This document shows, piece after piece, positions 6,956-42,576 of a stretch of 51,902 bases of DNA (positions are counted from its first letter, which is position 1; every line of letters begins with the position of its first letter). The translations under genes and the position numbers were made by a program. The stretch is from positions 1 to 51,902 of IMG/VR virus record IMGVR_UViG_3300033388_006813; one strand, given 5' to 3'. This DNA comes from a virus. The notes below the pieces were generated by a model, which saw nothing but the letters and a program-made list of their open reading frames with translations, was not told the DNA's origin and did no database searches.

Positions 6956-7592
6956 TGAATGCCTTTATGTAACTCCTGGAAGTACAACATATGTTGCTGG
7001 AGATGCTTGTTATATTTTTGCTTCAGCAGCAGGAGATATAGCCACTATGGTTATAGATGGTGTTAGTTTTATAATAAAAAATGAAGGAGGGTTGTTCCTG
7101 TGGGATAATAACTCTTCTATAAATAAAAAGATATTTACAATTATTGGCGAATATATAACAAGAAGAGTAGGAAATCATTATATTAAGATAACATATGATG
7201 GGACTGGTAGCCTATTATTCTCTATAGAGTTTACAACTTTTTATGAAAGTGTTTCTGATTTAATCAGTACCTCTCAAGATAGGGGAGAAAATATATCTAC
7301 CGCTTTGTGTAATATGAAAAGAGATTTGGAAAATTCAGAGGTTATTAGTCAAAATATAGATAAACAGTGGCTATTTGAAGGAGTTAATGCAACTTATAAA
7401 AAAGCAGATTTGAAACATAATACTTATAGTAGAGTTGTTCTTGATTTTGTTTTTAGGCTGCAAATACATATAACTACTACATATGGATCTGTCGATAGTT
7501 ATTTGGAAGATAATAATATTCAAGTTCCGCAAACGTTTGCTATTATTTCTGAACTTATTGGATTTACTATAGGTGCTGCATATATTGAATAA
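6720..7592 (+). CDS. Frame -1 continuation: Ser/Lys tract, beta domain and unknown C-terminal domain
   Basis: The frame opens at 6720, just after TAA at 6717-6719. It has no convincing start before the Met at 7047, which lies inside a folded domain, so it is best read as the displaced C-terminus of the gene at 3259. It encodes the rest of the Ser/Lys tract, then a domain (about 6957-7230, including VIDGVSFIIKNEG and FLWDNNSSINKKIF). That domain is clearly related to the one after the Ser tract of the first gene. The last about 120 residues (ending IQVPQTFAIISELIG) are closely similar to the whole separate protein at 7615. Restoring one base near 6723 would give a single protein of about 1440 residues. 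It could be a real mutation, a slippage product or an assembly error. Confidence 0.65.
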   Translation, partial: ERSKSSSSSSSKSSSSSSLKSSSSSSSKSSSSSSSKSSSSSSSKSSSSSSSKSSSSSISSSSSISSSSSSISSSSSSVGECLYVTPGSTTYVAGDACYIFASAAGDIATMVIDGVSFIIKNEGGLFLWDNNSSINKKIFTIIGEYITRRVGNHYIKITYDGTGSLLFSIEFTTFYESVSDLISTSQDRGENISTALCNMKRDLENSEVISQNIDKQWLFEGVNATYKKADLKHNTYSRVVLDFVFRLQIHITTTYGSVDSYLEDNNIQVPQTFAIISELIGFTIGAAYIE

Positions 7593-8013: not shown

Positions 8014-9927
8014 ATGGCAAAAAAGAAATTAAATGTAGGAGATCTAATAGATGATTTCACTGATGATATAAGTATTGGAACATCAGAAAAAATAATACCA
8101 GATATTATGACTTTTGTTAATGATAAGGAATGGCTTGGATTGCCAACACATCCAACAAATCCTATTACATTATTCAATATGCAAAGAATTATGTTAAAAA
8201 CTTTTTATAGAGGCTCTTTGGGGAATGAAGATTTAACCCTAACAGAAGAAGAAATAAAAATGTGTGAAGATCTTGGATTAAGTGATGATAACAGAGGAGA
8301 TGTTGTCGGAAAATATAATAGTGGAGAATTGTTCAGAGAATTAGTTCTTGTGTGGGGAAGAAGATCAGGAAAAGATTTTATAGTTTCTATTATAGCTCTT
8401 TATGAAGCTATGAAGCTTTTAGAATGTCCTGGTGGAGATCCTTATGCTATGTATGAATTGTCTTCTGCTACTCCAATAAATATATTAACAGTAGCTAATG
8501 CTAAACCACAGGCAAAAATCGCTTTTGATGAGATAAAAGAAAAATTATTATATTCGGAGTATTTTAGAGATAAATTCACAAAAGATGGAATGACATCTAG
8601 TTCCATTTATTTATTAACTCCGCAAGATAAAAAATATAATAAAGAATTTAGAGAAAAAGGTTTGCCGCAGAAAAAAGGATCTATCGGAATAGTTGTTGGT
8701 CACAGTAACTCAGACTCTCTTTTGGGAATGGGTTGTATTGTTCTAATACTTGATGAGGTTGCTTCTTATAAAACATCTGGAGGATCTTCATCTGGAGATA
8801 GAATTTACACAGCTTTGACTCCTACTGTTTCAACTTACAACAGAAAAACATATCTTAAAGATGGAGATAATAATTTTGTTTATGATGAACATGGTCAAAA
8901 AATAGTTCAAAGTAGAGTTTATGATGGAAAAATAATAAGCATTTCATCTCCTAGAGCACAAGAGGGAATATTTTATGAGATGTTTAGAGATGCTCATCAA
9001 GTATCTCAAAGATTAGCTATGAGACTTCCCACTTGGGACGTTAACACTCAGCATACTAGAGAAGCATTAAGAAAAGAAAGTCCTTTAGGCGAAACTGATT
9101 TCAATATGGAATTTGGTGCAGAATTTAGCGGTATGGGTTTGGAAAGTTTTTTCACAGAAGATTTAGTTAATAGCTGTTTTAATGGGCATAATTTCAGAGA
9201 TACAGAAATAGGTTCGGCGGGAAATGTATATTTTATTCATATAGACCCAGCATCTTCTAGTCATAATTATGCATTAGTTGTTTTGCATAAAGAATATTTT
9301 ATGGATCCTACAACAAAAAAAGCACAATTCGCAATAGTAGTAGATCATATAAAGCATTGGTCTCCAGCTAAAGGTCCTATAAATCCAGAAGAAGTTACAG
9401 CTTATATTATTAGTTTGAAACGAAGATTTCGCATTGGTCTCTTAACGTATGATAGCTGGGCTTCTCAAGAGAGTATTAGATTAATGAGAAAAGCAGGTAT
9501 ACCTAATAAAGAAACTAAATTTACTGGAGTATATAAAATAAAAATTTATAGAGAGCTTGAGAGTTTAGTTATTAGTGGAAGAATTAAAATCCCATTGGTA
9601 GACTCTGATGGCACAACATTACTTAGAAGTGAAATGCTTGAGCTTCAAAGAAAATTTACTGCTAATGGTTTTAAAATTATGCCAAAAACTGATGGAGATG
9701 GAGTTAAGAGTGATGATATAGTAGATTGTGTAGCTGGCGCAGCATATATTGCTATTGAAAAACAGGTGAGTAGATTGCCTAATGTTATGGTGGTAGAATG
9801 TGGGAATCCTGGAGGAGGTGGTCAAGTATGGAAAAGAGGGAATAATATCGTAGGAATTGGAAACGGTACTAAGGTGGCTAGAGATATTGAGAGAAGAGAG
9901 AATATGTTGTGGTATGGTCGTAGATAA
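8014..9927 (+). CDS. terL: Terminase large subunit (DNA packaging ATPase and nuclease)
   Basis: 637 residues, a usual TerL length. The N-terminal ATPase has a Walker A-type GRRSGKDF (about residues 115-122), Walker B CIVLILDE with D247 and E248, and a coupling-type segment ISSPRAQEG. The C-terminal RNase-H-like nuclease shows the acidic residues expected: HIDPASS (D411), TYDSWAS (D480) and SDDIVD (D567/D568). The protein would pump DNA into the prohead through the portal and cut concatemers. The ATG follows GAGGAAAAG. No separate small terminase is recognisable nearby. No intein interrupts it, unlike the portal and the protease. Confidence 0.95.
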   Translation: MAKKKLNVGDLIDDFTDDISIGTSEKIIPDIMTFVNDKEWLGLPTHPTNPITLFNMQRIMLKTFYRGSLGNEDLTLTEEEIKMCEDLGLSDDNRGDVVGKYNSGELFRELVLVWGRRSGKDFIVSIIALYEAMKLLECPGGDPYAMYELSSATPINILTVANAKPQAKIAFDEIKEKLLYSEYFRDKFTKDGMTSSSIYLLTPQDKKYNKEFREKGLPQKKGSIGIVVGHSNSDSLLGMGCIVLILDEVASYKTSGGSSSGDRIYTALTPTVSTYNRKTYLKDGDNNFVYDEHGQKIVQSRVYDGKIISISSPRAQEGIFYEMFRDAHQVSQRLAMRLPTWDVNTQHTREALRKESPLGETDFNMEFGAEFSGMGLESFFTEDLVNSCFNGHNFRDTEIGSAGNVYFIHIDPASSSHNYALVVLHKEYFMDPTTKKAQFAIVVDHIKHWSPAKGPINPEEVTAYIISLKRRFRIGLLTYDSWASQESIRLMRKAGIPNKETKFTGVYKIKIYRELESLVISGRIKIPLVDSDGTTLLRSEMLELQRKFTANGFKIMPKTDGDGVKSDDIVDCVAGAAYIAIEKQVSRLPNVMVVECGNPGGGGQVWKRGNNIVGIGNGTKVARDIERRENMLWYGRR

Positions 9928-23099: not shown

Positions 23100-26000
23100 A
23101 TGGCTATTAAAATGAAAATTTCAGATGACTCACCAGAAAATAAAAGAAGAATGGTAGCAGCATCTGGAGCTTATACGGTTGAAGATCAAAAGATGTATAA
23201 AGGATTAGGATATCAAAATAGATTTTATGCTGGTGCGCAATCAGTAAGTATGCCTATCACAAAGAATGCACAATATGCTGGGTCTGGGGCAAATGTAGCA
23301 ATGACTCAACCTATGTTTTTCTCACCACTGCATACTCCTCAAAACTGGCAGATAGCTAGTAGAAGAAGAGAGATAATGCAATGGGCAAGATTTTATTACA
23401 TGAATGAGCCTAAGGTCGCGGCGGGCGTAGATTTTTATGCTAATTTTTCTATGAATGGATTTAAGTTAGAATGTAAAAATAAAAAAGTTTTAAAGTTTTA
23501 TGAAAAATTAGTTAAAGATATAGATATTGTTGAGAAATTAAATAGTATTAGTCATGAGTATTTTTTGTTGGGAGATGTTTTTCCTTTCTTAGAAATAACA
23601 TGCCCTCATTGCCAAAATAAAGGTTTTACTTCTGATGGAAAAATTTGTAATCATCCAGATGGTAATTTTAAATCTATTAAAGTTATGAATCCAGATTATA
23701 TCGAAGTTAAAGACAATCCTATTGCTAGCAACCCAGAATATTATTTAATTCCGGATGAAGAATTAAAATTAATTATTCAAAGAAGAGAACCAAGAAAGAT
23801 ATATGAAAGTCTTCCACAAAGATTTATAGATTTAGTTTCATCGGGACAGCCAATTCCATTATCTAGTAGAAGCATAAGTCATTTAAAACATAATGCTAGT
23901 GATTATGGTACATATGGAATCTCTATGCTTCAAAGATTATTTACTATTTTGGCATATAAAACTAAAATCATGACAGCCAATTGGATTATAGCTGAGAGAT
24001 TAATTCTTCCTATTCGTGTTGTAAAGGTAGGAGATAAAGACAGACCAGCTACAGAAGCTGATTTGCAAGATGTTGTTACTCAATTATCGGCAGTAGCTAA
24101 TGATCCTAATTTAACTGTTGTAACTCACCACGCATTTGACTATGAATGGCATGGAGCTAGTGGAAAAATTCATAATATAACACAAGAGTTAGAAGAAATT
24201 GGGAAAGAAATTTTAGATGGTTTAATGTTGAATCAAGCTATTCTTAATGGCGAAATGGCTGGATATTGTATGAGTGAAGATACTCTCACTCTTACCGATT
24301 CTGGTTTTAAGCATTATTGGGAGATAGATGAAACAAAAGATAAAATTGCTTGTTACAATGACCAAACTAAAAAAATAGAATATCATCTTCCTTATGAGAA
24401 AGTCGTTTATGATTATGAAGGAGAGATGATTCATTTTAATACTGATAAGATTGATATCTTAGTATCTCCTAATCATAGGATGTGGAGTGCTAAGAGAGGT
24501 TCTGATAAGTTTGAAATTATAAGAGCAGAGGACGTTAAGTCAAGAGCAAAATTTGTAGGTGCTGTTGATGGGTATGAGGGAGAATATTGCCCTTATGTTC
24601 AAATAGGAGCAGAACAATATAATATTTATGATTTTTGTAAATTAGCTGGGTATTATGTTTCTGAAGGATGGGTTAGAGAAGAAAAGAGAAAAATTAGGGC
24701 AAATAGATTTACGACTGTTGGCATAAGTCAATCAAAAGATGGTAAAGCCAGAGAAGATATTGAAAATATTTTTGACAATATGTTTAATACACATTGGAAG
24801 GAAGAAAACCAAGTATGTGTTCATAAGCCAGAATTAGCAGATTATTTGAGGAATAATTTTGGTAGAGGTTGTGTTAACAAAAAACTTTCACCTTTTGTAA
24901 AAAATCTTTCTACAGAATGTTTAGAAATAGTTTTAGACGCTATGGTAAATGGAGATGGTTGTGATAGAGAATATTTAGGAAGAAAGAATGGGAATAAATC
25001 TTATTATACTTCTAGCTATCAGTTAGCACAAGATTTTGCAGAGATAGCATTCAAATGTGGTTATGTTGTAAAGATTAGAGAATATAATAAAAAAGAATCA
25101 AAAGATAAAGTTTATTTTAACAAAAGAGGACATCAATATAAAACTAATCATCAACAATATGTTGTATATATTTCTAAGGGATTTAAGGGAAGAACTCCTA
25201 CTCTTTGTTCTAAATCTAAAAAATATGCAGGGAAAGAAATAATAAGAGAATCTTACGATGGCAAGATTTATTGTTTTTCTGTTCCTTATGAAAAATTTGT
25301 AACTATGAGAAATGGTATAGTTACTATTCAAGGAAATACATCGGCTCAGGTTGGTATTGAAGTTCTGATTAGAAGATTGGATAACTGGAGAAATAAATTA
25401 AAAGATTGGGTGGAGAAAAATATATTTGAACCAGTTGCTATGATGCAAGGTTTTGTTGATGAACAAGAAACTGAGGAGATGGGATATACTGTTTATTTAT
25501 ATCCTCAACTTATATGGAATGATTTACAGTTAAGAGATAAGACAAATAGGATACAAACTCTTATGCAGATGTATGATAAACAATTAGTATCTGCTCAGAC
25601 AGTATTAGAAGAACTTGATTTGGATTATGATTCAGAAGTCGAGAAAATAAGAAGTGAACAAGTGATGGCAACCGCTCAGGGTCAACTTGGCGGACCAATG
25701 GGGGGAGCAGGAAATCTAGGGACAATGGGAATGGGTGGGCCTATGCCTCCTCCAGGTGGCGGTCCTCCTGATGTAGCTGGTGAAGGGATGGGTGCTCCAG
25801 GAATGGGTGCTCCAGCTCCAGGTGGAGGAATGGGTGCTCCAGCTCCAGGTGGAGGAATGGGCGCTCCAGCTCCAGGTGGAGGAATGGGTGCTGCTGCTGG
25901 TGGAATGCCTATAATAGGGAAGAGAGGATCTAAATCAGTAGCTGAACAGCAAGAAGAGGAAACTCCACCACCTCAAATGATAAAACTTACAAAGTTAGAA

Positions 26001-26486
26001 CAAAAAATGTATAAAACATTATTGTCTATGAAAATACCTTATGCATTATTTGGGCAATATTCTGTTAATTTACCGGGAGAAGAAAGGCCATTTTCTTTAG
26101 ATTTTGCTTATCCAAAGGTAGGTGTTGGAATTGAAGTTGATGGAGCTATCTGGCATCAAAGAGAAGATTTTCAACAGAGAGATATGAACAGAGATCAAAA
26201 GTTGGCTAATGTTGGATGGAGAATATTAAGATTTAGAGAAGATGCTGTTGAAGAACAAATAGATGCTGTGAGAGATGTTATTTATAAAAATCTTATTGAA
26301 GCAGAAAAAACTACGAAAAAATCTGCTGAAGATGATAGTATCATAAAATATGCTTCTACTGATATCAGTAGAAACTTTACACATGATTTTATAATAAATA
26401 ACGGTGAAGGTATCGGGTGTAATAGAAAAAATATTTCTAATAGTATTCAAGTTCTTTATATAGGGAATATCGAAAATGGAGATTAA
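23100..26486 (+). CDS. Portal protein with intein and C-terminal DUF559/Vsr-like nuclease domain
   Basis: 1128 residues, 771 after removal of the intein at residues 390-746. The portal part has the usual features of large-phage portals: REIMQWARFYYMNEPKVAAGVDFY, KVMNPDYIEV, DYGTYGISMLQRLF, and a long helical section after the intein (VLIRRLDNWRNKLKDWV). The portal forms the ring at the capsid vertex through which the terminase pumps DNA. After Gly/Ala/Pro/Met repeats (about 880-935), residues about 960-1062 look like a DUF559/Vsr-type PD-(D/E)XK nuclease: SLDFAYP with D1001, GIEVDGAIWH with E1012 and D1014, RDQKLANVGWRILRF. N-terminal ITKNAQYAG resembles the cluster motif. Ribosome site AGGAAGGAAA. 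The fusion of a portal with this domain is very unusual to me. Confidence 0.85.
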   Translation: MAIKMKISDDSPENKRRMVAASGAYTVEDQKMYKGLGYQNRFYAGAQSVSMPITKNAQYAGSGANVAMTQPMFFSPLHTPQNWQIASRRREIMQWARFYYMNEPKVAAGVDFYANFSMNGFKLECKNKKVLKFYEKLVKDIDIVEKLNSISHEYFLLGDVFPFLEITCPHCQNKGFTSDGKICNHPDGNFKSIKVMNPDYIEVKDNPIASNPEYYLIPDEELKLIIQRREPRKIYESLPQRFIDLVSSGQPIPLSSRSISHLKHNASDYGTYGISMLQRLFTILAYKTKIMTANWIIAERLILPIRVVKVGDKDRPATEADLQDVVTQLSAVANDPNLTVVTHHAFDYEWHGASGKIHNITQELEEIGKEILDGLMLNQAILNGEMAGYCMSEDTLTLTDSGFKHYWEIDETKDKIACYNDQTKKIEYHLPYEKVVYDYEGEMIHFNTDKIDILVSPNHRMWSAKRGSDKFEIIRAEDVKSRAKFVGAVDGYEGEYCPYVQIGAEQYNIYDFCKLAGYYVSEGWVREEKRKIRANRFTTVGISQSKDGKAREDIENIFDNMFNTHWKEENQVCVHKPELADYLRNNFGRGCVNKKLSPFVKNLSTECLEIVLDAMVNGDGCDREYLGRKNGNKSYYTSSYQLAQDFAEIAFKCGYVVKIREYNKKESKDKVYFNKRGHQYKTNHQQYVVYISKGFKGRTPTLCSKSKKYAGKEIIRESYDGKIYCFSVPYEKFVTMRNGIVTIQGNTSAQVGIEVLIRRLDNWRNKLKDWVEKNIFEPVAMMQGFVDEQETEEMGYTVYLYPQLIWNDLQLRDKTNRIQTLMQMYDKQLVSAQTVLEELDLDYDSEVEKIRSEQVMATAQGQLGGPMGGAGNLGTMGMGGPMPPPGGGPPDVAGEGMGAPGMGAPAPGGGMGAPAPGGGMGAPAPGGGMGAAAGGMPIIGKRGSKSVAEQQEEETPPPQMIKLTKLEQKMYKTLLSMKIPYALFGQYSVNLPGEERPFSLDFAYPKVGVGIEVDGAIWHQREDFQQRDMNRDQKLANVGWRILRFREDAVEEQIDAVRDVIYKNLIEAEKTTKKSAEDDSIIKYASTDISRNFTHDFIINNGEGIGCNRKNISNSIQVLYIGNIENGD
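24267..25337 (+). mobile_element. Intein with LAGLIDADG endonuclease, in portal
   Basis: 357 residues. Block A starts at Cys (CMSEDTLTLTDSGFK). A block B-like ILVSPNHRMWS follows. The endonuclease part has two LAGLIDADG helices (KLAGYYVSEGW and LDAMVNGDGC). Blocks F and G are IYCFSVPYEKFVTMRNG and VTIQGN, with Thr as the first residue of the C-extein. The penultimate residue is Gly rather than the usual His. Joined exteins read GEMAGY to TSAQVG. Splicing is inferred. Confidence 0.9.
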
Positions 26487-26886
26487 AACAGCAGGTAGAA
26501 AAAGAATTAAAGATCGAGGAATAAAATGGGAACAAAGATTCCATGAAAGATCTGAGAAATTAAGAGAACGTTTTAATAAAACAATAGGACCTTTGGCTTA
26601 TATAAGATGGGAAGGTCATGATTATACAACTGATTCTGATTATTTTATTATAGTTGGGCCATCTCTTACTAAAGAAATGAAGAAAAGATTTTTTGCGGGA
26701 ATTAAAAAATTACCAGATGATCCAAAAGCTAAAGTTTATGCTCCTGCTGGAGAATATTTTTTTAGCTCAGTAGCCGCTCTCAGTCATGCTGTTGAGAAGT
26801 GGGGAATAAAGTTTCCAAGAGGTGCTCCTAATTATACCCTAGACGATTTGGCTGATGTTGAAATACCTAGGCACGTAAAGGGTTAA
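26476..26886 (+). CDS. Unknown protein after portal
   Basis: 136 residues, overlapping the portal end by 11 nt. It starts MEIKTAGRKRIKDRG (basic, with a K-T-A piece). A compact alpha/beta middle follows (YTTDSDYFIIVGPSLTKEMK, VYAPAGEYFFSSVAALSHAV). The pattern of a small DNA-end or head-completion protein is possible by position, but I recognise no family. Confidence 0.55.
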   Translation: MEIKTAGRKRIKDRGIKWEQRFHERSEKLRERFNKTIGPLAYIRWEGHDYTTDSDYFIIVGPSLTKEMKKRFFAGIKKLPDDPKAKVYAPAGEYFFSSVAALSHAVEKWGIKFPRGAPNYTLDDLADVEIPRHVKG

Positions 26887-27493: not shown

Positions 27494-30400
27494 ATGGCAA
27501 TACATAAAATAGCAACATTTTCATATCGATGCTCAGTAGAAGCTTTAAATAAGCCGAAAGGTTGGGAAATCTATAATCTACCTAACAAAATTAAAACAGC
27601 ATCTAAAACTTCTAATAGTGAAGACTTAGGTGGATTTGATTTAAAAGAAGCTACATCTAAACACCCAGATCATTTGTATATAAAAATCTTTGCAATTAAG
27701 AAAGATGAGCCAAATGATAATGGAGATGCATTTGATGCGACTCAATTAAAGAAAGCTGCTCCTACCTTTGTTGGAGTACCACTCTTTACTAATCACCAAA
27801 ATGATGATGTTGAAAAATCAAGAGGGGAGTGTGTCCATTCTTGGTATGATAAAGAAGAAGGTGGTATCTATATTATCGGTAGAGTAGATAAAGTAGCTTA
27901 TCCAAAATTGGCAAGAGGAATAGAAGAGGGATATATATCAGGAACTAGTATGGGGTGTTTTTTGGGGCATAATAGGGTCTTAATGGCAGATTCTAGTTAT
28001 AAGTATATATACGATATTAAAAAAGGTGATGAAGTTATAACTCATAAGGGCAGAGTGAGAAAAGTTAAAAATCTTCAAAGACATGAAGACAAAACTAATG
28101 ATTTGATTTATAAAATAAAAGTTGAAGGTTTGTCTAATGAGATTTGTGCTACAAAAGAACATCCATTTTATGTCCTACAAGAACAAACTAAATGTTATAT
28201 TACAGGACAAGATATCGGTGTTCCTAAGTCTATGAGAAATAGATATAGAAGAAGGACTAAGGGAGGAGTTTACCAACAAGAAGAATATAAAATTGCTTTA
28301 AAAAATGGTGAATTAGATCAGTTCGATTTTGAATGGAAAAAATCAGAAGACCTCAAAGAAGGAGATATGGTTTCTTTTCCCATTTCTAAAGAAATTGTTG
28401 AAGATTCCGATGCTACATCTGACAAAGCGAGGTTAATAGGTTATTTTTTAGCAGAAGGTAGTTATCTTAAATATAAGGGTAATAGAGTTGCTGTAGAATT
28501 TAATTTTTGTTTATCAAAAGAAAAAGATACTTTAGGAAAAGAAGTTATAGGTTTATTAAGAAAAGTCTTTGATGGGACATTAGAACCAAAAATACAAGAA
28601 AGACCCGATAGAGATATTCTTATGATCCGTTTATATGGTAGAGATGTCGCTCAGTGGTTCTTTAATTATTGTGGGGAATATTCTCATACAAAAACATTAA
28701 ATAAAAAATGTTTATTTTGGGATCCAGAAATTCAAAAACATATTTTAGCTGCGTGGATAAATGGAGATGGAACTTGTAGAAATATTTATGCTCAGAATGG
28801 AAAATTATATCAAAATATTAGTGGGACAACTTGTTCTGAGACCCTACATAATCAAATGAAATTTATTACATCTAGATTAGGGATATATTCGACGACTGAA
28901 TATATAAAAGAAAGAGCGATAAAAAATGGGAAAAAACCATATTGGATTTTAGTTTTTGGGTGTAAGGAATCTCAAAAATTAAACGAAGTATTAGGTATTG
29001 ATAGAATAGTAGAGGGAGAATATAGAGATTCTTGGTTTAGGCAAGCAGATGATTATATTGTAATGCCTATTAAAAAAATTGAGAAAGAATATAATACAGA
29101 ACCTGTTTACAATATAGAAGTAGAGGAAGATCATTCTTATATCGTAGAAGGTGTTGTTGTAAAAAATTGTTCTGTAGAATATAGCCTCTGTTCAGTTTGT
29201 CACAATATGGCAAATACATCAGATGAGTATTGTACTCACGTTTCTAATAGAAAAAATAGAAAATATAATGGCAGTATAAACTGTTCTTATCATCAGAGCA
29301 AAACAGATACAGATGAAAAATGCCCATTGTGTGGATGTGAGAAAGAAGAAAGTAAAAGTATAAAACATGCAGAACAGATGATTTATGAACATAATTATGG
29401 ATTGAAATTTATTGAAAATTCATTTGTTGTCAACCCAGCATGTCATGAGTGCGGGGTTACTTGTGTTCTTCATGTTCCAGAGCTTCAGAAAAAGGTTGCT
29501 GAGTTTTCTAAAGTTATAAATAGATTAGTTAAAGACGCTAGTAGCGAATTTACTAAAGAATCAGCAACTGCTAAAGCTATTGAGAAATTAGGAGGGGTTA
29601 ATGAAATTAACTCTCTTAAGAGTAGCATGAATGAGATGGAAATGGTTGTTAAAAGTATGTTGAAACAAAAAGATAATGTTTCAATGGAATATGTTTCTGA
29701 TCTAGTTAAGGCTATGGCAGATGTTCAGGGAATTTTAGATGAGCTTGTTGAGATGGGCTATGCAGCGTTGCCATCTCCACCAGTAACGGCAGGTGAAGAG
29801 ACTGAAGTGCCAGCACCATTCCCAGAACCAGTACAAACCCCTGAGCCGCAAATGGTTGCTCCAGGAGGTGGATCTAGCTCCCAAGAGGACCTTGGAGGGC
29901 TAGGAAATGTAACTCTTCCTCAGAAATCTTCAAATAAAAAAGAGGATTTTTCTAAAATAAGTGAAAATGTAAGTAATAAGGTATCGTCTTTGAAGCAAAG
30001 AGTGCATAAAATACAAGAAAAACAAAATAATAATGAAATAGGAGCAATTATGGCTACTGATAAAACCACAAAAACAGCAGCGGGAACTGAAAATCTAGAA
30101 GTGATTACGGAGAAGCAATTGGAGAAGAAACAGGAAAATCTTCACCCCAGAACAGAAACCGTTTATGAAAGTATTACTGAAAGTAAAGAACAGATTGGCG
30201 GAACAGAGCAATCTAACGATACTACTAGTGATAGTCCTCAAGTTCGACTTGGAACATATGAGACAACTACCGAAGATCAACTTAAATCAGAAAGTGCTCT
30301 GGGTAGTGCTATAACTCATTTTGTTGAATACCCAGATGTTATTACAGAAAAACAATGGGATGATTTTAGCCGAGATATTGCTGGTGATTTGCCAGAAGAT

Positions 30401-33400
30401 TATACTGAATCTATAACTCAAGCTCAAATAAGAGACCTTCTTAGTAAACATAAATTTATTGGTAATGTTGAAACTATTACTGAAGATCAACTTAGAAATA
30501 TGACTATGACTGATGGACTTAAGAGATGGGCTAGTTCAGATTATTCCGTATCTCTTATGAAAACAGCAATTAATACAATTGTTGATGCTGTTGTTAAATA
30601 TAAAAAATCTCCTAATGAGATAGTGAAGGCAGCTACTATTATTAATGACGATAGTGCTACAAAAGATAAAGCAGCTTTTTTGGCTGTTGTTAATTCTCTT
30701 CCTCAAAAGGCAGATGACAAAGAAGCGTTAACTCAAAATATAGCTTATTTCTGCAAGACAGCAGCTACTCATAATAAAATCTCAGGAATAGATGCTCTTA
30801 TATTGGCAGCTTCTGACAATGGTCAGTTTGCCATGAGAGCAGAAGATCTTTTTGATTCTATTTATCATGCTACAAATAACAAAACAGCATATAAGAAAGT
30901 ACAAGAAAAAGTTGCTAAAAGAATGGAAGATGATAGTACTAAAACTATTATGTCTAAAGCAGATGGTTTTGATAAAGCTCTTAAAATAATGGATAGACCA
31001 GAAGATGGCAAATATCAGATCAGAGCATCTGTAAGTGATGTTGATGCCCCTATTACAGATAAAGTTGCTTTCTTAGCAGGAGTTAAAAAACTCGCACAAG
31101 AAATGATTGACGATGACGGTGTAGACGCTTCTGCTATTATTAAGATAGAAGTTGGTGATGGTGGAGAACTGCTTATTGATATCCAAGAAGGAGCAGAAGA
31201 AACTGTTTGTCCTGATGATATAGGAGATATTATTGAAGGACCAGTTGAAGATATCGAAGCTGATAATAACGGTGAAGAAACAAATGATATGAAACCTATG
31301 GAAGGTGGAGATCAAGCAGGAATGGGAATGGGTCAAGGACAAGATCAGAATAGACCTTCAATGAACCCTATAGCAGCAGCAAAGTCTGAGATTAAACAAG
31401 CTCAAATGATGGGTGGAGAAATGGGTGGTCAAGGTGGAGCAGCACAAGCACCTGGAGCAGGAGCAGCATTACCAGGATCGCCTGGAGCAGAAGTTCCTCC
31501 AATGGAGAATTTCACAGAAGATCCAATGGCGGATGAAGAGGGTGGCTTCGATGAAGAAAATCTTGAGGCAAAACCTCCAGGATCTATTTGCCCAGTTTGT
31601 GGAAGTGATGATGTTGATATCATTTCTGGAAAAGGAAAATGTAATAACTGTGGTTCAGAAATGACATATAAAGTTGAAGTTAATGTTACTAAGTGGGAAG
31701 GTGTAACTCCTACTGGTGATGAGGCTGAAGAGCTTGGTGGACTTGGAGAGGGAGAAGGTTTTGAAATGCCTACTGAAGAGCCAGAGCTTGGAGCAGAAGA
31801 GCCAGGTATGGGTGGAGGAATGGCAGGAGAAGCTGGAATGCCAGCTATGGCTGCTTATACTCGTTTACTTCCAGAAGCACTTAAGAAAATTGGAAGTCAA
31901 AATATTATACTTGGATCAGTCAGTCCAATAACTGGAACTATAAATACTCTTAAAATGGATGATGAGCAGTATGTATGTTTAGACACTGGTACAAAATATA
32001 AAGTTTCTTGCATTGTTTCTAAAGATGGCAACAAGGCCTATGCACAGTGGGAATGGAAACCAAAAGTCGCTGGAGTAGAATGCCCATCTTGTTCGAGAGC
32101 AAAACAAAGATTTATTAAAGCTCTTTCTTCTGTAGAACTTACAGAAGCTAAATTTAATGAGTTAGAGCTTAAAGATAAAGTTGATATTATTGTAAAAATG
32201 AATAAGTCTGGAGCACTGATGAAAGTTGCTGCTAAAGAAGGTTCAGTAGTAGAAGATTATAAACTTGCTTATGGCAACTATGGAGATAAATTCCCAGTCG
32301 AATCTTGTATTGAGAAATTAGCACGTAGATTTGGAAAAGATGCTATCTGTTTGAGCGGACCAGATGAAGGTGAAAATCTTGCTGAGTCTGTATGTAATAG
32401 ACTTAAAAAGGCTGATGTTTATACTACTAAATTAGCAACAAAAGTTGCTTCGATTTGGTCAGATTGTGATGGAGATGAAGAGTGTATTACAGATCAAGTT
32501 AGAAATGGTTATTCATTAAGAGAATCAGCAGTAATTTGTACAACATTGAAATCTGCCATGGTTCAATCTGATTATATTTTTGCAGATCAACTTAGTGTTA
32601 CATCACAGATTATTGATGAAGAGCAAGATTCTATGGGAGAACCTGTTGATGATATAGGAATGGGAGAAGAAGAAGATCCATTCGAAAATATTGATGAAGG
32701 CATTGATGGTGGTACTGTAACAATCGAGCTTCCATCAGATGTTGCTGAACAACTTGGTTCTGCAGTGGATGAAGCAACGGGTGGAATCGGAGAAGAAGGA
32801 ATAGATGAAGGCGGAATAGGTGATGAAGGCGGAATAGGTGATGAAGGCGGAATAAGTGATGAAGCTCCAATAGAAGAAGTTGCGCCAGGTGATTTAGATG
32901 GTGGAGATATGAATTCTATGGAAGGTGGAGAAGTGCCTGTGGAAGGCGAAGAAGCCCCTATAGAAGAAGGTAAAGATATGACAATGTTTGATAGCGAAAC
33001 ACCAGAAGGCATGGGCGGTATTGGAGAGCCTTGTGATGATTCTTATGGCGGGGGCGGATCTGTTAAGATTACAGTTAATGGAGAACCAACAGGTGGCGGA
33101 TCAGCTTTTGCAGAAAAAAAAGAGGATTTTGAAAAAGAAGCTGGAAATGTAAATGATAATGATGGTATGGATTATAAGGAAGCCTTAATTATGAGTGGAG
33201 CAATTGGACAAGTTGGAAAGCCTCAAATGGATCTTTCTTCTGTTATCGCAGCTATTAATAAAACTGCGGGAGAAAAAGAAATTTCACAAGAGAAAGCACA
33301 AGACAGTCCCGATATAGGAACTTATACAGCTGGTGAAGGTGGAAGTGAAATGGGTCATGAAAGTGAAACCATTAGAACTCCACAAAAACCAAGTGTACCA

Positions 33401-34279
33401 AGAGACAATGCTACAATGGGTCAAGAACCAAGTGATCTTAATCCACAAGATAAACCTCTTCCAGTTGTTCCTTCTGATGATGCTACAATGGGTCATGAGA
33501 AAGAAGTTGGATTGGGTGGTGGAGATAATAGATTTACTGGTGGAACCGATGGACAAGGTAAAACAGAGTTGGCTTCAACAGATGATGATCTTTATCATAT
33601 GAAGGGTTTTGGAACCTCTAAAGACAGTTTATCTGCTCTTGCAGATAGAATTGCTAAAAAAATGGAACCAAAGAAGCCTGTAGCGGATGATCCAGATATT
33701 CAGCCAATTGATGCTGGAGATGGAAGCACAATAGGAAAAGAAGATAAGTTCACTGCTGACGAACCTAATAGTGTAGAAGGCGGAGCAACTGAGTCACTTA
33801 TCGGACATGAAAGTGAGACAGTTGGTTCAGCTCCAAAAGAGCCAGCAGATCAACCAGAAGTGTTCACAGGTAATGCCCAAATGGGTAAAGAAGAATTAGA
33901 TTCAGAAAAAACAACAAAAGATAAAGGTACAGTAATCGCAAATAGCGATTCTGAGTCCGAAGCTTATAGGGTAGCTGGAAAAATGATAGCAGCTAATAAA
34001 ATAGATGCATCAGAGCTACAGAGTAAAGTTAATGAACTCAAAACTTATAAGCCTGCTCAAATAAGAGATTTTGAAAAAGCGATTTTCGCTGGTCAAAAAG
34101 GACTTGACACTGTTTCAGACGGTATATCTCAAGCCGTGCAAATAAATGAGAATAGTAGCATGAGAAATGCTAATGAAGAGTTGTCAGATAAGTTGCAAGG
34201 ATTATTTACTCTTGAAAAACAGAATAAAATAGCAAGTGATGATACTACAACTCAATTAAGAAAAGTTTTTAGTAAATAA
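27494..34279 (+). CDS. Prohead protease fused to very long scaffold-like region, with intein
   Basis: 2261 residues, 1857 after intein removal (155-558). The N-terminal part resembles phage prohead proteases of the herpes-protease fold: VGVPLFTNHQND (candidate catalytic His), GGIYIIGRVDKVAYPKLA, GYISGTSMG then, after the intein, CSVEYSLCSVCHN (candidate Ser in GTS). A Cys-rich segment and a helical region follow. Next are five or six degenerate ITEKQL-type repeats (residues about 870-1000), a four-Cys zinc ribbon (CPVCG, CNNCG), and long Gly/Glu/Met-rich acidic linkers. MGHE or MGKE tags occur near the end. Such length suggests protease plus scaffold, as in phages where the two are encoded together. 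An internal ATG at 30050 with AGGAG may give the scaffold alone. Confidence 0.8.
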   Translation: MAIHKIATFSYRCSVEALNKPKGWEIYNLPNKIKTASKTSNSEDLGGFDLKEATSKHPDHLYIKIFAIKKDEPNDNGDAFDATQLKKAAPTFVGVPLFTNHQNDDVEKSRGECVHSWYDKEEGGIYIIGRVDKVAYPKLARGIEEGYISGTSMGCFLGHNRVLMADSSYKYIYDIKKGDEVITHKGRVRKVKNLQRHEDKTNDLIYKIKVEGLSNEICATKEHPFYVLQEQTKCYITGQDIGVPKSMRNRYRRRTKGGVYQQEEYKIALKNGELDQFDFEWKKSEDLKEGDMVSFPISKEIVEDSDATSDKARLIGYFLAEGSYLKYKGNRVAVEFNFCLSKEKDTLGKEVIGLLRKVFDGTLEPKIQERPDRDILMIRLYGRDVAQWFFNYCGEYSHTKTLNKKCLFWDPEIQKHILAAWINGDGTCRNIYAQNGKLYQNISGTTCSETLHNQMKFITSRLGIYSTTEYIKERAIKNGKKPYWILVFGCKESQKLNEVLGIDRIVEGEYRDSWFRQADDYIVMPIKKIEKEYNTEPVYNIEVEEDHSYIVEGVVVKNCSVEYSLCSVCHNMANTSDEYCTHVSNRKNRKYNGSINCSYHQSKTDTDEKCPLCGCEKEESKSIKHAEQMIYEHNYGLKFIENSFVVNPACHECGVTCVLHVPELQKKVAEFSKVINRLVKDASSEFTKESATAKAIEKLGGVNEINSLKSSMNEMEMVVKSMLKQKDNVSMEYVSDLVKAMADVQGILDELVEMGYAALPSPPVTAGEETEVPAPFPEPVQTPEPQMVAPGGGSSSQEDLGGLGNVTLPQKSSNKKEDFSKISENVSNKVSSLKQRVHKIQEKQNNNEIGAIMATDKTTKTAAGTENLEVITEKQLEKKQENLHPRTETVYESITESKEQIGGTEQSNDTTSDSPQVRLGTYETTTEDQLKSESALGSAITHFVEYPDVITEKQWDDFSRDIAGDLPEDYTESITQAQIRDLLSKHKFIGNVETITEDQLRNMTMTDGLKRWASSDYSVSLMKTAINTIVDAVVKYKKSPNEIVKAATIINDDSATKDKAAFLAVVNSLPQKADDKEALTQNIAYFCKTAATHNKISGIDALILAASDNGQFAMRAEDLFDSIYHATNNKTAYKKVQEKVAKRMEDDSTKTIMSKADGFDKALKIMDRPEDGKYQIRASVSDVDAPITDKVAFLAGVKKLAQEMIDDDGVDASAIIKIEVGDGGELLIDIQEGAEETVCPDDIGDIIEGPVEDIEADNNGEETNDMKPMEGGDQAGMGMGQGQDQNRPSMNPIAAAKSEIKQAQMMGGEMGGQGGAAQAPGAGAALPGSPGAEVPPMENFTEDPMADEEGGFDEENLEAKPPGSICPVCGSDDVDIISGKGKCNNCGSEMTYKVEVNVTKWEGVTPTGDEAEELGGLGEGEGFEMPTEEPELGAEEPGMGGGMAGEAGMPAMAAYTRLLPEALKKIGSQNIILGSVSPITGTINTLKMDDEQYVCLDTGTKYKVSCIVSKDGNKAYAQWEWKPKVAGVECPSCSRAKQRFIKALSSVELTEAKFNELELKDKVDIIVKMNKSGALMKVAAKEGSVVEDYKLAYGNYGDKFPVESCIEKLARRFGKDAICLSGPDEGENLAESVCNRLKKADVYTTKLATKVASIWSDCDGDEECITDQVRNGYSLRESAVICTTLKSAMVQSDYIFADQLSVTSQIIDEEQDSMGEPVDDIGMGEEEDPFENIDEGIDGGTVTIELPSDVAEQLGSAVDEATGGIGEEGIDEGGIGDEGGIGDEGGISDEAPIEEVAPGDLDGGDMNSMEGGEVPVEGEEAPIEEGKDMTMFDSETPEGMGGIGEPCDDSYGGGGSVKITVNGEPTGGGSAFAEKKEDFEKEAGNVNDNDGMDYKEALIMSGAIGQVGKPQMDLSSVIAAINKTAGEKEISQEKAQDSPDIGTYTAGEGGSEMGHESETIRTPQKPSVPRDNATMGQEPSDLNPQDKPLPVVPSDDATMGHEKEVGLGGGDNRFTGGTDGQGKTELASTDDDLYHMKGFGTSKDSLSALADRIAKKMEPKKPVADDPDIQPIDAGDGSTIGKEDKFTADEPNSVEGGATESLIGHESETVGSAPKEPADQPEVFTGNAQMGKEELDSEKTTKDKGTVIANSDSESEAYRVAGKMIAANKIDASELQSKVNELKTYKPAQIRDFEKAIFAGQKGLDTVSDGISQAVQINENSSMRNANEELSDKLQGLFTLEKQNKIASDDTTTQLRKVFSK
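27956..29167 (+). mobile_element. Intein with LAGLIDADG endonuclease, in prohead protease
   Basis: 404 residues. It begins at Cys (CFLGHNRVLMADSS). Block B is NEICATKEHPFYVL with the T-x-x-H pattern. LAGLIDADG helices are RLIGYFLAEGSYL and ILAAWINGDGTC. The end is PVYNIEVEEDHSYIVEG then VVVKN, with Cys as first C-extein residue; Lys replaces the usual penultimate His. It is inserted immediately after GTSMG, beside the presumed catalytic Ser. Confidence 0.92.
30050..34279 (+). CDS. Nested in-frame scaffold-type product from an internal start (candidate)
   Basis: ATG 30050 lies in the reading frame of the protease gene and is preceded by AGGAG (30040-30044) at a normal distance. The product would be 1409 residues starting MATDKTTKTAAGTENLEV, exactly where the ITEKQL repeat region begins. 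Protease and scaffold sharing one frame with an internal start is the lambda C/Nu3 arrangement. The shorter product would lack the protease and the intein. Expression is inferred from the ribosome site and domain boundary only. Confidence 0.5.
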   Translation: MATDKTTKTAAGTENLEVITEKQLEKKQENLHPRTETVYESITESKEQIGGTEQSNDTTSDSPQVRLGTYETTTEDQLKSESALGSAITHFVEYPDVITEKQWDDFSRDIAGDLPEDYTESITQAQIRDLLSKHKFIGNVETITEDQLRNMTMTDGLKRWASSDYSVSLMKTAINTIVDAVVKYKKSPNEIVKAATIINDDSATKDKAAFLAVVNSLPQKADDKEALTQNIAYFCKTAATHNKISGIDALILAASDNGQFAMRAEDLFDSIYHATNNKTAYKKVQEKVAKRMEDDSTKTIMSKADGFDKALKIMDRPEDGKYQIRASVSDVDAPITDKVAFLAGVKKLAQEMIDDDGVDASAIIKIEVGDGGELLIDIQEGAEETVCPDDIGDIIEGPVEDIEADNNGEETNDMKPMEGGDQAGMGMGQGQDQNRPSMNPIAAAKSEIKQAQMMGGEMGGQGGAAQAPGAGAALPGSPGAEVPPMENFTEDPMADEEGGFDEENLEAKPPGSICPVCGSDDVDIISGKGKCNNCGSEMTYKVEVNVTKWEGVTPTGDEAEELGGLGEGEGFEMPTEEPELGAEEPGMGGGMAGEAGMPAMAAYTRLLPEALKKIGSQNIILGSVSPITGTINTLKMDDEQYVCLDTGTKYKVSCIVSKDGNKAYAQWEWKPKVAGVECPSCSRAKQRFIKALSSVELTEAKFNELELKDKVDIIVKMNKSGALMKVAAKEGSVVEDYKLAYGNYGDKFPVESCIEKLARRFGKDAICLSGPDEGENLAESVCNRLKKADVYTTKLATKVASIWSDCDGDEECITDQVRNGYSLRESAVICTTLKSAMVQSDYIFADQLSVTSQIIDEEQDSMGEPVDDIGMGEEEDPFENIDEGIDGGTVTIELPSDVAEQLGSAVDEATGGIGEEGIDEGGIGDEGGIGDEGGISDEAPIEEVAPGDLDGGDMNSMEGGEVPVEGEEAPIEEGKDMTMFDSETPEGMGGIGEPCDDSYGGGGSVKITVNGEPTGGGSAFAEKKEDFEKEAGNVNDNDGMDYKEALIMSGAIGQVGKPQMDLSSVIAAINKTAGEKEISQEKAQDSPDIGTYTAGEGGSEMGHESETIRTPQKPSVPRDNATMGQEPSDLNPQDKPLPVVPSDDATMGHEKEVGLGGGDNRFTGGTDGQGKTELASTDDDLYHMKGFGTSKDSLSALADRIAKKMEPKKPVADDPDIQPIDAGDGSTIGKEDKFTADEPNSVEGGATESLIGHESETVGSAPKEPADQPEVFTGNAQMGKEELDSEKTTKDKGTVIANSDSESEAYRVAGKMIAANKIDASELQSKVNELKTYKPAQIRDFEKAIFAGQKGLDTVSDGISQAVQINENSSMRNANEELSDKLQGLFTLEKQNKIASDDTTTQLRKVFSK

Positions 34280-34920: not shown

Positions 34921-35793
34921 ATGGCTCTTAATAAAACAGGTCTTTCAGATCAAGATAAAGAAATGATAATCGCGCAAGCTCTTGAAACAGACGAAGGTCG
35001 TACTGCCCTTGCTCAGGCAATGGTAGAGCCAATTCGTAGGTCACTTGAGTATCAGGCAGTAGGAAGAAAGCTTCTCATGGTTGATGAGTTACCTCAAGGT
35101 GCTCTTGCTCGTTACGAGAGAGATGTTGCAGCAATTGCTTGGATCATTTCTCGTCGTGGCGCTGTACCTGATCAAATTCAGGAAGGGGAGGAAGTGTTGG
35201 TTCCTACTTTTGAAATCGCAGCAAATCCAACAGTACGTCTTAGTGAGATCAAGGCTCGTAGATTCTACATTGTAGACAGAGCACAGATCAAAGCTAAAGA
35301 AGCTATCCAGAAAGAGGAAGATAGTAATATTTTTAATGCTCTTTTGACAGCTTGTCAATCAGCACAAACAATTACTAACTATGGAACTCTTACAGTCCAG
35401 GCTCTTAATGAAGCATTTAAGCAGATTGAGCAACATGATCTAGTTACAGCTAAGATCGTTACTCATGCTTTCCAGTATGCTAGCATTAGAACTTTTGGTA
35501 AGGATTTCTTCGATGAGGCAACTCAGAGAGAAATCATCACAACTGGTCTTTATGGTCATCTTTGGACAGCTGACATACATGTTAGCTCAAGAATGACCAG
35601 CACTGTAGTCCTTCTTGTTTCTTCGCCTGAGACAGTGGGTGCTTTCCCAATCAGACAGGACATAACAGTTCTTCCAGCTGATGATCCTAAGAAACTTAGA
35701 TTAGGATGGGTAATATATGAAGAGGTAGGAATTGTCGTTATTAACGATTATGCTATCTCTCGTATTAATATGGAAGATGCTAACGCCTCTTAA
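34921..35793 (+). CDS. Major capsid protein (HK97-fold-like)
   Basis: 290 residues. Segments typical of phage major capsid proteins include VEPIRRSLEYQAVGRKLL, DVAAIAWIISRRGAVPDQ, EGEEVLVPTFEIAANPTV, IDRAQIK-like VDRAQIKAKEAIQ, and a C-terminal beta domain with RLGWVIYEEVGIVVINDYAI. The place after protease and decoration gene and before a terminator supports this call. Codon choice differs from its neighbours (more CTT, CGT, GCT and ATC), as expected for the most expressed gene. AAGGAG with 8-nt spacing is the ribosome site. No long N-terminal propeptide is evident. Confidence 0.85.
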   Translation: MALNKTGLSDQDKEMIIAQALETDEGRTALAQAMVEPIRRSLEYQAVGRKLLMVDELPQGALARYERDVAAIAWIISRRGAVPDQIQEGEEVLVPTFEIAANPTVRLSEIKARRFYIVDRAQIKAKEAIQKEEDSNIFNALLTACQSAQTITNYGTLTVQALNEAFKQIEQHDLVTAKIVTHAFQYASIRTFGKDFFDEATQREIITTGLYGHLWTADIHVSSRMTSTVVLLVSSPETVGAFPIRQDITVLPADDPKKLRLGWVIYEEVGIVVINDYAISRINMEDANAS

Positions 35794-36113: not shown

Positions 36114-37124
36114 ATGAGAGAAGAGCCACATTACACTAATCTGTTAACAAAAGAATTTTTTGAAGAATATTATATTAACCAAAAAATGTCTTATCCTAAA
36201 ATAAGAAAAATGTTATTAGAGCAAGGATACAATATTCATAATGGGACTTTGCATAAGTATGCTGAAAGATTAGGAATTGGAAGAGATCGTTCAGAAGCAA
36301 GAAGAAATTTATTTCCATGTTCTTTAGATTATAAAGTAAATTATATACAAGATGATATGATAGAATTTATTGATGGTTTCTTATTAGGAGATGGGGGAAT
36401 AAATTTTGATAAAAGAAGTATAAATAATCTTATAGCCAGATTCCGTTGTGGTGTAGAATATGAAGAATTTTGTAGTTATTTAATGGAACCTTTTAAGAAA
36501 TTGAGTTCAAGTGTAAAAAAACATAAGGCAAAAAGTATGAAGCAAGGATTTATGTTTAGCGGTAGTACTAGTAATCATCCAGATATTTATAAACAATATT
36601 TAAGATGGTATCCAGAAAATAAAAATGGGCAAAGAATTAAACAGCCTCCAGAAGATGTAAGAATAACTAAAAATTCTGTTCTTATGTGGTATCTTGGTGA
36701 TGGATCTGTGGTCGTAAAAAATAATACGATTGCTACTCGATTATCTACAGACGGGTTTTCAAAGGTTAAGGTTGAGATGTTAGTAGATAAATTACAACAA
36801 ATTGGTATCAAATGCTATAGGAATAATGAGAATCGTATTAGAATTAATTCAAGGGGTATTCCTGCCTTCTATAATCTTATTGGGGAAAAAAGTCCTATCA
36901 AATGTTATAATTATAAATTTGATAAAATACCATTTTGGAGATTTGAGAGCAAGAGGATGAAAGAAGTCGCAGAAGAATTAGATATAAATTATCAAAAATT
37001 AGCATATATGGTTAAAATAGGCAAAATACCTTGTTTTAGATTGAGTGAGAAGGGTAGACCTAGATTTTTACCAAACCATATTGTTAAGATTAAAAAAATG
37101 GTAGAATCTGGAAAACTTTCTTGA
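36114..37124 (+). CDS. Free-standing LAGLIDADG homing endonuclease with HTH domains
   Basis: 336 residues. Two LAGLIDADG-type helices are visible: IEFIDGFLLGDGGIN (about residues 82-96) and VLMWYLGDGSVVV (about 196-208), the pattern of a monomeric enzyme. The N-terminus looks like a small HTH (SYPKIRKMLLEQGYN, TLHKYAERLGIG). The C-terminus looks like an excisionase or MerR-type HTH (MKEVAEELDINYQKLAYMV, RPRFLPNHIVKIKK). It would cut a specific site in related phages lacking it and so spread by repair. It is flanked by two copies of a promoter-like repeat, consistent with insertion between the capsid gene and the methyltransferase. Confidence 0.85.
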   Translation: MREEPHYTNLLTKEFFEEYYINQKMSYPKIRKMLLEQGYNIHNGTLHKYAERLGIGRDRSEARRNLFPCSLDYKVNYIQDDMIEFIDGFLLGDGGINFDKRSINNLIARFRCGVEYEEFCSYLMEPFKKLSSSVKKHKAKSMKQGFMFSGSTSNHPDIYKQYLRWYPENKNGQRIKQPPEDVRITKNSVLMWYLGDGSVVVKNNTIATRLSTDGFSKVKVEMLVDKLQQIGIKCYRNNENRIRINSRGIPAFYNLIGEKSPIKCYNYKFDKIPFWRFESKRMKEVAEELDINYQKLAYMVKIGKIPCFRLSEKGRPRFLPNHIVKIKKMVESGKLS

Positions 37125-37149
37125 AAAGTGAAAATAAATATTATAAAAT
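37121..37149 (+). promoter_or_regulatory. Promoter of the methyltransferase gene (TTGAAA, 17 nt, TAAAAT)
   Basis: TTGAAA at 37121-37126 overlaps the endonuclease stop; TAAAAT is at 37144-37149 with a 17-nt spacer. The 36-nt block 37121-37156 is nearly the same as 35982-36017. The start codon at 37180 follows with TAAGGA. Confidence 0.6.
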
Positions 37150-37179
37150 ATATATACGTTTAATATAAGGAATATTTAG

Positions 37180-38373
37180 ATGCCAAAAATAAAAAAAACA
37201 GATAACATTATTTTGCGGGTAACATCTTCTGATCATAATTCAATTCGAATTAAATCGAAGTTATTTGGTAAGAGCAAAAGTAATTATATTCGTCATTGTG
37301 TTTTTTCTCATTGGGAAAATCTTGAAAGTACTTCTCATTTTAAGGAATTACTGAGAATGTACAAAGAGGGGGATAAAGAAATAAAAGATGAAGTTGTGGA
37401 ACTTTTATTTCATTATTATAGGGAGAATGGATTTCCTCATAATAAATTAAATGATATTCAAAAAGAAAATAGATTGAAGAGAGTAATAAATAGTAAAAAT
37501 GTATTATTAGAAGACAATCATTTACAGATGAATCCTCAAGGAATAGATTTGGCGAATCATTTTCATCCTCATATGATGGAAGCATATTATAGTATTGGAA
37601 CAAATTCTCCTTTTGAGACTTTTAATGATGATGAAAAGTTGAAAGATTGTATAAATAGGTGGTTAGAGTTGGAAAAAGTTCCTAATCATGCGGGGATGAG
37701 AAGAATTTTAAAAACGAGGAATGGAACTAAAGGTGTAGTTAATTACAAACCCACGATAGCTAAATTTATTTATGATAGATATTGTCCAGAGAATGGTAAG
37801 GTTTTAGATCCTTGTGCTGGATATGGTGGTAGATTAGTTGGTTGTATCGCATCTAATAAGAATATATTTTATCATGGAATAGATCCTGTTGGAGAAACGG
37901 CTGTAGGGAACTCCAGGATAGCTTCATTTTTTTCAAAACAATATGATGTGTTTATGGGTCGAGTTTATAATTATCGCTTTAGATTCGATCAGGAGTGTGC
38001 TGAGGAGGTTATGCCTAATATAAAAGAGAGGTATGATTTAGTGTTTACGAGTCCTCCGTATCATTCTCAGGAAATATATTCAGATAATATTTCTCAAAGT
38101 TCTAGTAAGCACAAAGAGTATGAGAATTGGTTGAGGAATTTTTTATATGTTATAGTTGATGAGAGTAAAAGAATTTTAAAAGATGATGGAAAATTAGTAT
38201 TGAATGTAAAGAATTTACAGAAGAAAAAGATAGCAGATGATTTGTGTAAGTATTGTGAAAAGGATTGGGAGTTAGAAACTACATATCATATGAGATTAAG
38301 TAATAATGAATTTAATCGTAAGGGTGATAAGATGTTTCATACTGAACCAATATTTGTGTGGAAGAAGAAATGA
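37180..38373 (+). CDS. DNA methyltransferase (N4-cytosine/N6-adenine type) with N-terminal RHH-like part
   Basis: 397 residues. Motif I is DPCAGYGGRLVG (about 208-219), the S-adenosylmethionine site; motif IV is TSPPY (about 291-295). TSPPY is more usual for N4-cytosine enzymes, but related N6-adenine enzymes also use it. The end (ESKRILKDDGKLVLNV) fits the Rossmann methylase core. The first about 45 residues (ILRVTSSDHNSIRIKSKLFG, SNYIRHCVF) resemble a ribbon-helix-helix unit as in MobC-like proteins. No partner nuclease is next to it, so protection of phage DNA or regulation is likelier than a restriction pair. It is followed by a strong terminator. Confidence 0.85.
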   Translation: MPKIKKTDNIILRVTSSDHNSIRIKSKLFGKSKSNYIRHCVFSHWENLESTSHFKELLRMYKEGDKEIKDEVVELLFHYYRENGFPHNKLNDIQKENRLKRVINSKNVLLEDNHLQMNPQGIDLANHFHPHMMEAYYSIGTNSPFETFNDDEKLKDCINRWLELEKVPNHAGMRRILKTRNGTKGVVNYKPTIAKFIYDRYCPENGKVLDPCAGYGGRLVGCIASNKNIFYHGIDPVGETAVGNSRIASFFSKQYDVFMGRVYNYRFRFDQECAEEVMPNIKERYDLVFTSPPYHSQEIYSDNISQSSSKHKEYENWLRNFLYVIVDESKRILKDDGKLVLNVKNLQKKKIADDLCKYCEKDWELETTYHMRLSNNEFNRKGDKMFHTEPIFVWKKK

Positions 38374-41652: not shown

Positions 41653-42576
41653 ATGAAGAAAAGTAAAAAATTAGCCAAACGAGCATTTGGTATCGTAGCA
41701 GTTGAAGTAGTTTTGTCTAATCCTAATGGTAATCCCGATGAGGATGATATGCCTCGTCTTACCAATGATGAGTGTGGTCTTATTACACCAGTTTGTTTTA
41801 AGCATCGTACAAGGGAATTGTTGGAGGATCATGAGGGAGTTACCTGGGAATATTTGCAAGGCAAGTTGGGTCTTGACGATGATAGTTTCCATATCTGGGA
41901 ATCTGCTTGTAAAGGATACGATGTTAATTCGCCAATAGAGGCTAAAGAACATTGGTCTAAGATGGTTAAGGAAGAGGGAGAAGAATCTCTTTTGAAGCGT
42001 TTTTGGGATATGAGGGTATTTGGTACTACTGCTCTTGAAACAAAAGGCAAAGATTCTTTAAACTTTAAGAGGACAGGTTGTGTTTCTGTTTCTCCTCTTG
42101 TATCTTTACTTCCGATTGAGGTTATTAATCAGACAATCACAAAGGGGAATCCTCTTGAATCAAAGCTTATGGCTCAAGGTCAAGGGACAATAGCTCCTTT
42201 TGGATATAAGGTTGTAAGGCATGGGCTGTACATAGGTGTATATGTTATTAATCCTTCGAAAGCTCATTATACTGGTACAACTGAACAGGATATTGATGTC
42301 TTCAAGGAATTAATCAAGCATTCATTCAGTAATTCTACGGCTGCATCAAGGTCCGGAGTGAGAGTAGTTCAGATTGTACATGCTGAACATGATAATCCTC
42401 TTGGTTCATTTAATGAGTCAACATTATTTGAGTTTTGTAAACCTTCAACGGATCTTACACTTCCATCAATCTCTATGGATGATTATAACTTGAAATCTTT
42501 AGATGATATTAAGAAAGCTTTTCCAGATATTAAGGTAGAGATGTTAAGCAATACTTATTCGGAGGCATTAGTATAA
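41653..42576 (+). CDS. cas7: Cas7 (Csd2-like) Cascade backbone subunit
   Basis: 307 residues. Classic Cas7 signatures: EVVLSNPNGNPDEDDMPR (about 18-35), then GLITPVCFKHRTRELL, then RFWDMRVFGTTAL, and GYKVVRHGLYIGVYV. Cas7 polymerises along the crRNA spacer. The start follows GGAGATTTAAA. The stop TAA overlaps the cas3 ATG by one base (TAATG). The length is close to usual type I-C Cas7. Confidence 0.92.
   Translation: MKKSKKLAKRAFGIVAVEVVLSNPNGNPDEDDMPRLTNDECGLITPVCFKHRTRELLEDHEGVTWEYLQGKLGLDDDSFHIWESACKGYDVNSPIEAKEHWSKMVKEEGEESLLKRFWDMRVFGTTALETKGKDSLNFKRTGCVSVSPLVSLLPIEVINQTITKGNPLESKLMAQGQGTIAPFGYKVVRHGLYIGVYVINPSKAHYTGTTEQDIDVFKELIKHSFSNSTAASRSGVRVVQIVHAEHDNPLGSFNESTLFEFCKPSTDLTLPSISMDDYNLKSLDDIKKAFPDIKVEMLSNTYSEALV

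Follow-up and report, generated by a model that had tools for sequence, protein, structure and literature searches.

A phage portal protein with a C-terminal DUF559/Vsr-type nuclease domain, fixed in two clades of mostly giant, uncultured phages

Portal proteins are viewed as passive channels that also sense pressure and serve as docking rings. The window analyzed here, an IMG/VR virus record of 51.9 kb taken over its whole length of 51,902 nt, raises the question whether a portal can also carry a nuclease and what such a domain might do at the packaging vertex. The original prediction was a portal protein with a C-terminal DUF559/Vsr-like nuclease.

Architecture and context of the portal-nuclease gene

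The predicted fusion was confirmed. Portal, linker and DUF559 domain follow each other in one frame, and the Gly/Ala/Pro/Met linker expected ahead of the nuclease is present in the window (Table 1). The fusion lies far above chance because it is found throughout the relatives described below. The portal part is homologous to the phrog_16240 portals and to portal gp14 of Bacillus phage G, with which it shares about 33% identity, and solved portals in the PDB align to residues 77-496 of the whole-portal model treated below. A portal of the second clade also matches Portal_Mu (PF06074, 3e-10). The coordinates of the intein were read from the sequence, with the junction Y^C...GN^T. It is missing from L010 and other relatives, where the portal sequence is uninterrupted. 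As the intein lies within the portal gene, its predicted splicing would leave a mature portal of about 771 aa. In the L010 homologue, the linker (residues 494-594) is modelled with low pLDDT, and its composition over 106 relatives is 25% G, 10% P, 10% A and 8% M.

Table 1. Features of the portal-nuclease gene and of the head genes in the window.
Feature	Position	Strand	Basis or remark
Large terminase TerL	8014..9927	+	phrog_2, 3e-24
Portal-nuclease ORF	23100..26486	+	single open frame, 1128 aa including the intein
Portal N-extein, aa 1-389	23100..24266	+	phrog_16240 portal, 4e-40; homologous to intein-free L005, L010 and L011
Intein with LAGLIDADG endonuclease, C390-N746	24267..25337	+	LAGLIDADG_3 match
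Portal C-extein, end of wing and crown region	25338..25670	+	portal profile match spans the intein
Gly/Pro/Ala/Met low-complexity linker, predicted disordered	25671..25991	+	sequence; L010 homologue
DUF559/Vsr-type (EDxHD-like) nuclease domain	25992..26333	+	Pfam, AlphaFold, structural matches
Variable C-terminal tail, about 50 aa	26334..26483	+	poorly conserved among relatives
Conserved 136-aa gene, outside the fusion	26476..26886	+	directly 3' of the portal in nearly all window-type relatives
Major capsid protein (MCP)	34921-35793		phrog_2522, 8e-62

The ORF occupies the place of a tailed-phage portal in the order TerL-portal-protease-MCP. In the window, TerL (from 8014) and the portal (from 23100) are followed by a protease/scaffold-like ORF and the MCP (from 34921), and this matches the gene order of the phage G head cassette gp1-gp14-gp27. 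The phage G group also shares a disordered Gly/Pro-rich C-terminal tail on its homologous portals. In contrast to the window, these portals carry no nuclease domain, and no DUF559 match was found anywhere in the whole genome of phage G and three relatives, four records in all.

Several other genes of the window were annotated. The 136-aa gene behind the portal has no Pfam or PHROG match. The protease/scaffold-like ORF (27494-34279) encodes 2261 aa with a protease-like N-terminal part and long low-complexity stretches, and contains an intein of its own with a LAGLIDADG domain at about aa 155-560. At 36114-38373, a LAGLIDADG endonuclease gene with a MerR-like HTH adjoins an N6/N4 methylase ORF, which is possibly interrupted and matches its profile only at positions 2-102 of 221. 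A large ORF at 42576-45089 has a Cas3-like/helicase match at its C-terminus (PF22590, 8e-10).

Fold and active site of the nuclease domain

The domain matches DUF559 (PF04480) at aa 1000-1065 (26097-26294) with an E-value of 7.1e-10 and 39.2 bits, nearly twice the curated cut-off of 20.6 bits. Matches above this cut-off were also obtained for L010, L029, L113 and L130. The motifs named in the original prediction, SLDFAYP, GIEVDGAIWH and RDQKLANVGWRILRF, were all found in the window ORF. The key residues are encoded at 25998 (E), 26100 (D), 26133 (E), 26139 (D), 26154 (H) and at 26181 and 26193 (both D).

For structure prediction of the C-terminal domain, which had been proposed as a check, an AlphaFold model was built from an alignment of 41 family members, whose residue numbering is used here. 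It has a mean pLDDT of 86.6, is structured over about 25992-26333 and shows the Vsr/EDxHD-type fold in the order helix, three strands, helix with the DG-H motif, helix, strand and helices. The best structural match is 3hrl (Z 13.4, rmsd 1.8 over 93), followed by the catalytic domain of I-Bth0305I (3r3p; Z 12.7 over 96 residues) and E. coli Vsr (1cw0; Z 10.8 over 101 residues). TnsA and the RAP domain of FASTKD4 are among the fold matches as well. No portal is named among the matches listed from a viral structure library, which comprise DUF559 proteins, homing endonucleases and further nuclease-like or unnamed proteins.

These relatives differ from the portal domain in their setting. I-Bth0305I, with which the domain shares the fold and an equivalent ExDG/N-G motif, acts in intron homing and has additional, extended regions for DNA binding (PMC3943268), whereas the portal domain is fixed to a virion protein and lacks extended DNA-binding modules. 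Vsr is a mismatch nickase and a standalone repair enzyme; the portal domain has the same fold, and nothing in the analysis pointed to mismatch specificity.

The original prediction had described the key acidic residues as intact. This holds far beyond the window, as E14, D48, E59, H66, D75, R78 and D79 are invariant in all 95 unique domains and, apart from R78, form a conserved acidic/His catalytic set. G62, L82, G86, W87 and R91 are likewise invariant in these 95 domains, and position 61 is D in 92 of them. Judged from these residues, the domain has an intact active site and is probably enzymatically active.

Distribution, co-inheritance and selection

The original prediction had proposed a search for the same fusion in related phages. 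The first portal query returned 52 loci in viral contigs, and wherever the portal C-terminus was contained in the contig, the nuclease was present. When viral contigs were searched with the nuclease profile, 80 loci were kept, all of them portal C-termini except L098, a contig fragment cut ahead of the portal part. A portal-profile scan raised the total to 201 nuclease-bearing portal ORFs (redundant), with 9 further ORFs truncated at contig ends; a nuclease in frame was missing only from phage G and L193. Removal of redundancy at 97% left 95 portals from IMG/VR relatives: 84 with the nuclease, L193, 5 truncated at contig ends and 5 of the phage G group. The fusion is therefore in frame in 84 of the 85 complete non-redundant ingroup portals. 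A stop separating the domain in relatives, named beforehand as a refutation, was seen once. L193 has a single in-frame TGA (7414-7416) within the disordered linker, beyond which the nuclease frame continues intact; it could reflect an error, recoding of the stop or a true separation.

The fusion-bearing phages form two large and deep clades of mostly giant, uncultured phages with records of up to 548 kb. Portals of the second clade are intein-free, about 780-800 aa long, have linkers of about 160-195 residues and come from contigs of up to 358 kb. The domain is also present in L187, the deepest branch of the ingroup. In 13 of 13 records exactly one DUF559 match was found, that of the portal. 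The portal profile also matches two more distant proteins, the portals of Virus Rctr197k and of a cluster C mycobacteriophage, in neither of which a nuclease match was seen. A search of 84,980 bacterial and archaeal genomes detected relatives of neither the portal nor the nuclease and so gave no clue to a host. No isolate phage with the fusion was found: in no record was 80% of either portal query covered at a single place. Searches with the nuclease only returned homing, helicase-linked, methylase-linked or hypothetical genes. A phage G-like portal ORF of 1016 aa (L241:4995-8043) carries an unrelated C-terminal extension of about 350 aa.

The nuclease domains have diverged to about 30% identity with an unchanged active site. 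In close pairs, dN/dS of the nuclease is about 0.02-0.1, similar to that of the portal, and dN of the linker is higher than that of the nuclease and the portal in nearly all pairs. Patristic distances of portal and nuclease are correlated (Mantel r = 0.74, n = 83), a value which was reached in 0 of 999 permutations. These data show that the nuclease domain has become fixed in the portals of two large clades and is under strong purifying selection.

Inteins favour conserved motifs of essential proteins. In L023, L039, L049 and L051 an intein lies directly after the catalytic Glu59 of ExDG, at the same codon in all four, and by coordinates also after Glu59 in L172, L190 and probably L202. As these inteins sit inside the nuclease active site, the protein must splice to restore the nuclease.

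The original prediction stated that no described portal carries such a fusion. None was found in the open-access literature searched, including jumbo-phage reviews. Portals and DUF559 domains are both of known kinds, and their fixed combination across large clades appears to be undescribed. The fusion has been kept in two deep clades and is absent in phage G and the cluster C mycobacteriophage, which suggests a packaging or infection problem specific to the fusion-bearing phages. A nuclease retained over divergence to about 30% identity makes it possible to test whether the portal vertex takes part in catalysis.

Position in the head and possible role

The whole-portal model was built from the intein-free L010. 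It is of low confidence (pLDDT 59) and was used for gross alignment only. Its residues 77-496 align to many solved portals, including SPP1 gp6 and residues 74-515 of T4 gp20 (342 aligned, Z 7.8). In the T4 portal, the C-terminal residues 451-524 form the crown, which is the most internal part (PMC4493910). By homology, twelve portal subunits would form a ring whose C-terminal crown lies inside the head. Linker and nuclease would then project into the head, so that the nuclease domains are probably located in the capsid lumen.

We consider DNA processing during packaging or head maturation to be the most likely role, with a probability somewhat short of even. The domain would go back to a single domestication in a common ancestor, with a phage DUF559 gene or a homing-endonuclease-like gene as the probable source. 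Each portal ring would carry twelve nuclease copies, attached to the crown at the head-interior side by flexible linkers of about 70-200 residues, and these tethered nucleases could process ends, flaps, nicks and mismatched or damaged sites in the DNA at the portal. They would act alongside the nuclease of TerL, much as packaging in T4 is assisted by gp4 and by the portal-bound resolvase gp49. Because nuclease and genome would share one compartment, end or structure specificity, regulation or a modified phage DNA would be required. The intact packaged duplex might be spared through such structure or end specificity, or through inactivity of the nuclease until it is triggered.

T4 provides precedents for this role. 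Endonuclease VII (gp49) bound to the portal gp20 is a nuclease of the packaging vertex (PMC9958956), and gp4 is a virion-associated head nuclease of the REase fold which is needed for packaging (PMC7824862). Like the portal domain, gp49 is a DNA-processing nuclease physically present at the portal during packaging, but it is bound non-covalently, has an unrelated fold and resolves Holliday junctions. The TnsA-like gp4 shares the REase superfamily, and TnsA is among the fold matches of the portal nuclease; it differs as a separate protein of another REase family (PF08722, phrog_218) which is not fused to the portal. The window portal protein matches neither PF08722 nor phrog_218. A gp4-type nuclease was not matched in 16 records, which is weak evidence as the search had no control match.

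The presence of an intact nuclease domain on 84 of 85 portals suggests a nuclease within the packaging gate itself. It is conceivable, as a more tentative proposal, that the portal acts as an enzyme in its own right, adding a third catalytic component to packaging besides the ATPase and nuclease of TerL, and that its twelve tethered lumenal nucleases are required for infectious virions. Some findings count against a role in packaging. Phage G has the same gene order and manages without the domain. TerL retains its three acidic nuclease motifs (RNase H-type) in the window and in relatives of clades 1 and 2, so there is no obvious need for another nuclease. The same motifs rule out that the portal domain replaces a lost nuclease of TerL. 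Debranching as the sole role is weakened by the likely lumenal position, since lumenal domains would be out of reach of branches stalled at TerL outside the head. Searches for resolvases gave a mixed picture: RuvC and Hjc in 0 of 13 records each, in favour of a packaging role, but RusA-like resolvases in 4 of 13 and an endonuclease VII domain in 1 of 13, which count against it.

The main rival is a virion-carried nuclease, which we regard as less likely. Twelve copies would be loaded per head and act on ejection of the DNA into the next cell, either tethered or after cleavage of the linker by the prohead protease, on targets such as host, plasmid or competitor DNA, while the phage DNA would be protected by modification. 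The predicted lumenal position, the long disordered linker open to proteolysis and a maturation-protease-like gene downstream of the window portal (phrog_18299) are consistent with this role. N6/N4 methylases were found in 9 of 13 records, and standalone DUF559 genes of other phages adjoin DNA methylases. A coupling to N6/N4 methylases is nevertheless not universal, as 4 of the 13 records, two of them larger than 340 kb, have no such match, with other modifications being possible. Virion-carried effectors, moreover, usually diversify or get lost, whereas the portal domain is invariant and almost universal.

An activity in the infected cell prior to assembly is improbable. The portal is made in the cytoplasm, and with its intact active site a free portal could degrade host DNA or help to start packaging. 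Fusion to the portal would not be required for this, and no second, standalone copy of DUF559 occurs in any of the 13 records. It is very unlikely that the domain is a non-catalytic DNA-binding or structural module. Catalytic folds are often reused as binding domains, and the FASTKD4 RAP domain matches the fold, but the presumed metal-binding and catalytic positions do not vary over 95 unique sequences, down to about 30% identity.

A homing endonuclease which happens to sit on the portal gene, also raised in the original prediction, is contradicted and extremely unlikely: I-Bth0305I, a homing endonuclease catalytic domain, is the nearest solved relative by sequence and homing endonucleases are among the viral fold relatives, but in place of the mobile, sporadic distribution of an EDxHD, I-Bth0305I-type enzyme we found a single-copy domain without DNA-targeting modules, vertically inherited with the portal and strongly constrained by purifying selection, and no empty sites among close relatives (84 of 85 with the domain). 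Its fixation, selection and co-inheritance indicate a domesticated nuclease. The mobile elements of the portal gene are separate LAGLIDADG inteins and not the nuclease domain. Portal genes of relatives (e.g., L022, L048 and L051) carry several intein-like insertions each, with ORFs reaching 2400 aa, and these insertions recur at portal-profile positions of about 20-25, 255-260 and 295-305. TerL genes of relatives are apparently interrupted by intein-like insertions as well, in L223 (record G009) and L219-L222, where the ORFs are about 1000-1400 aa long.
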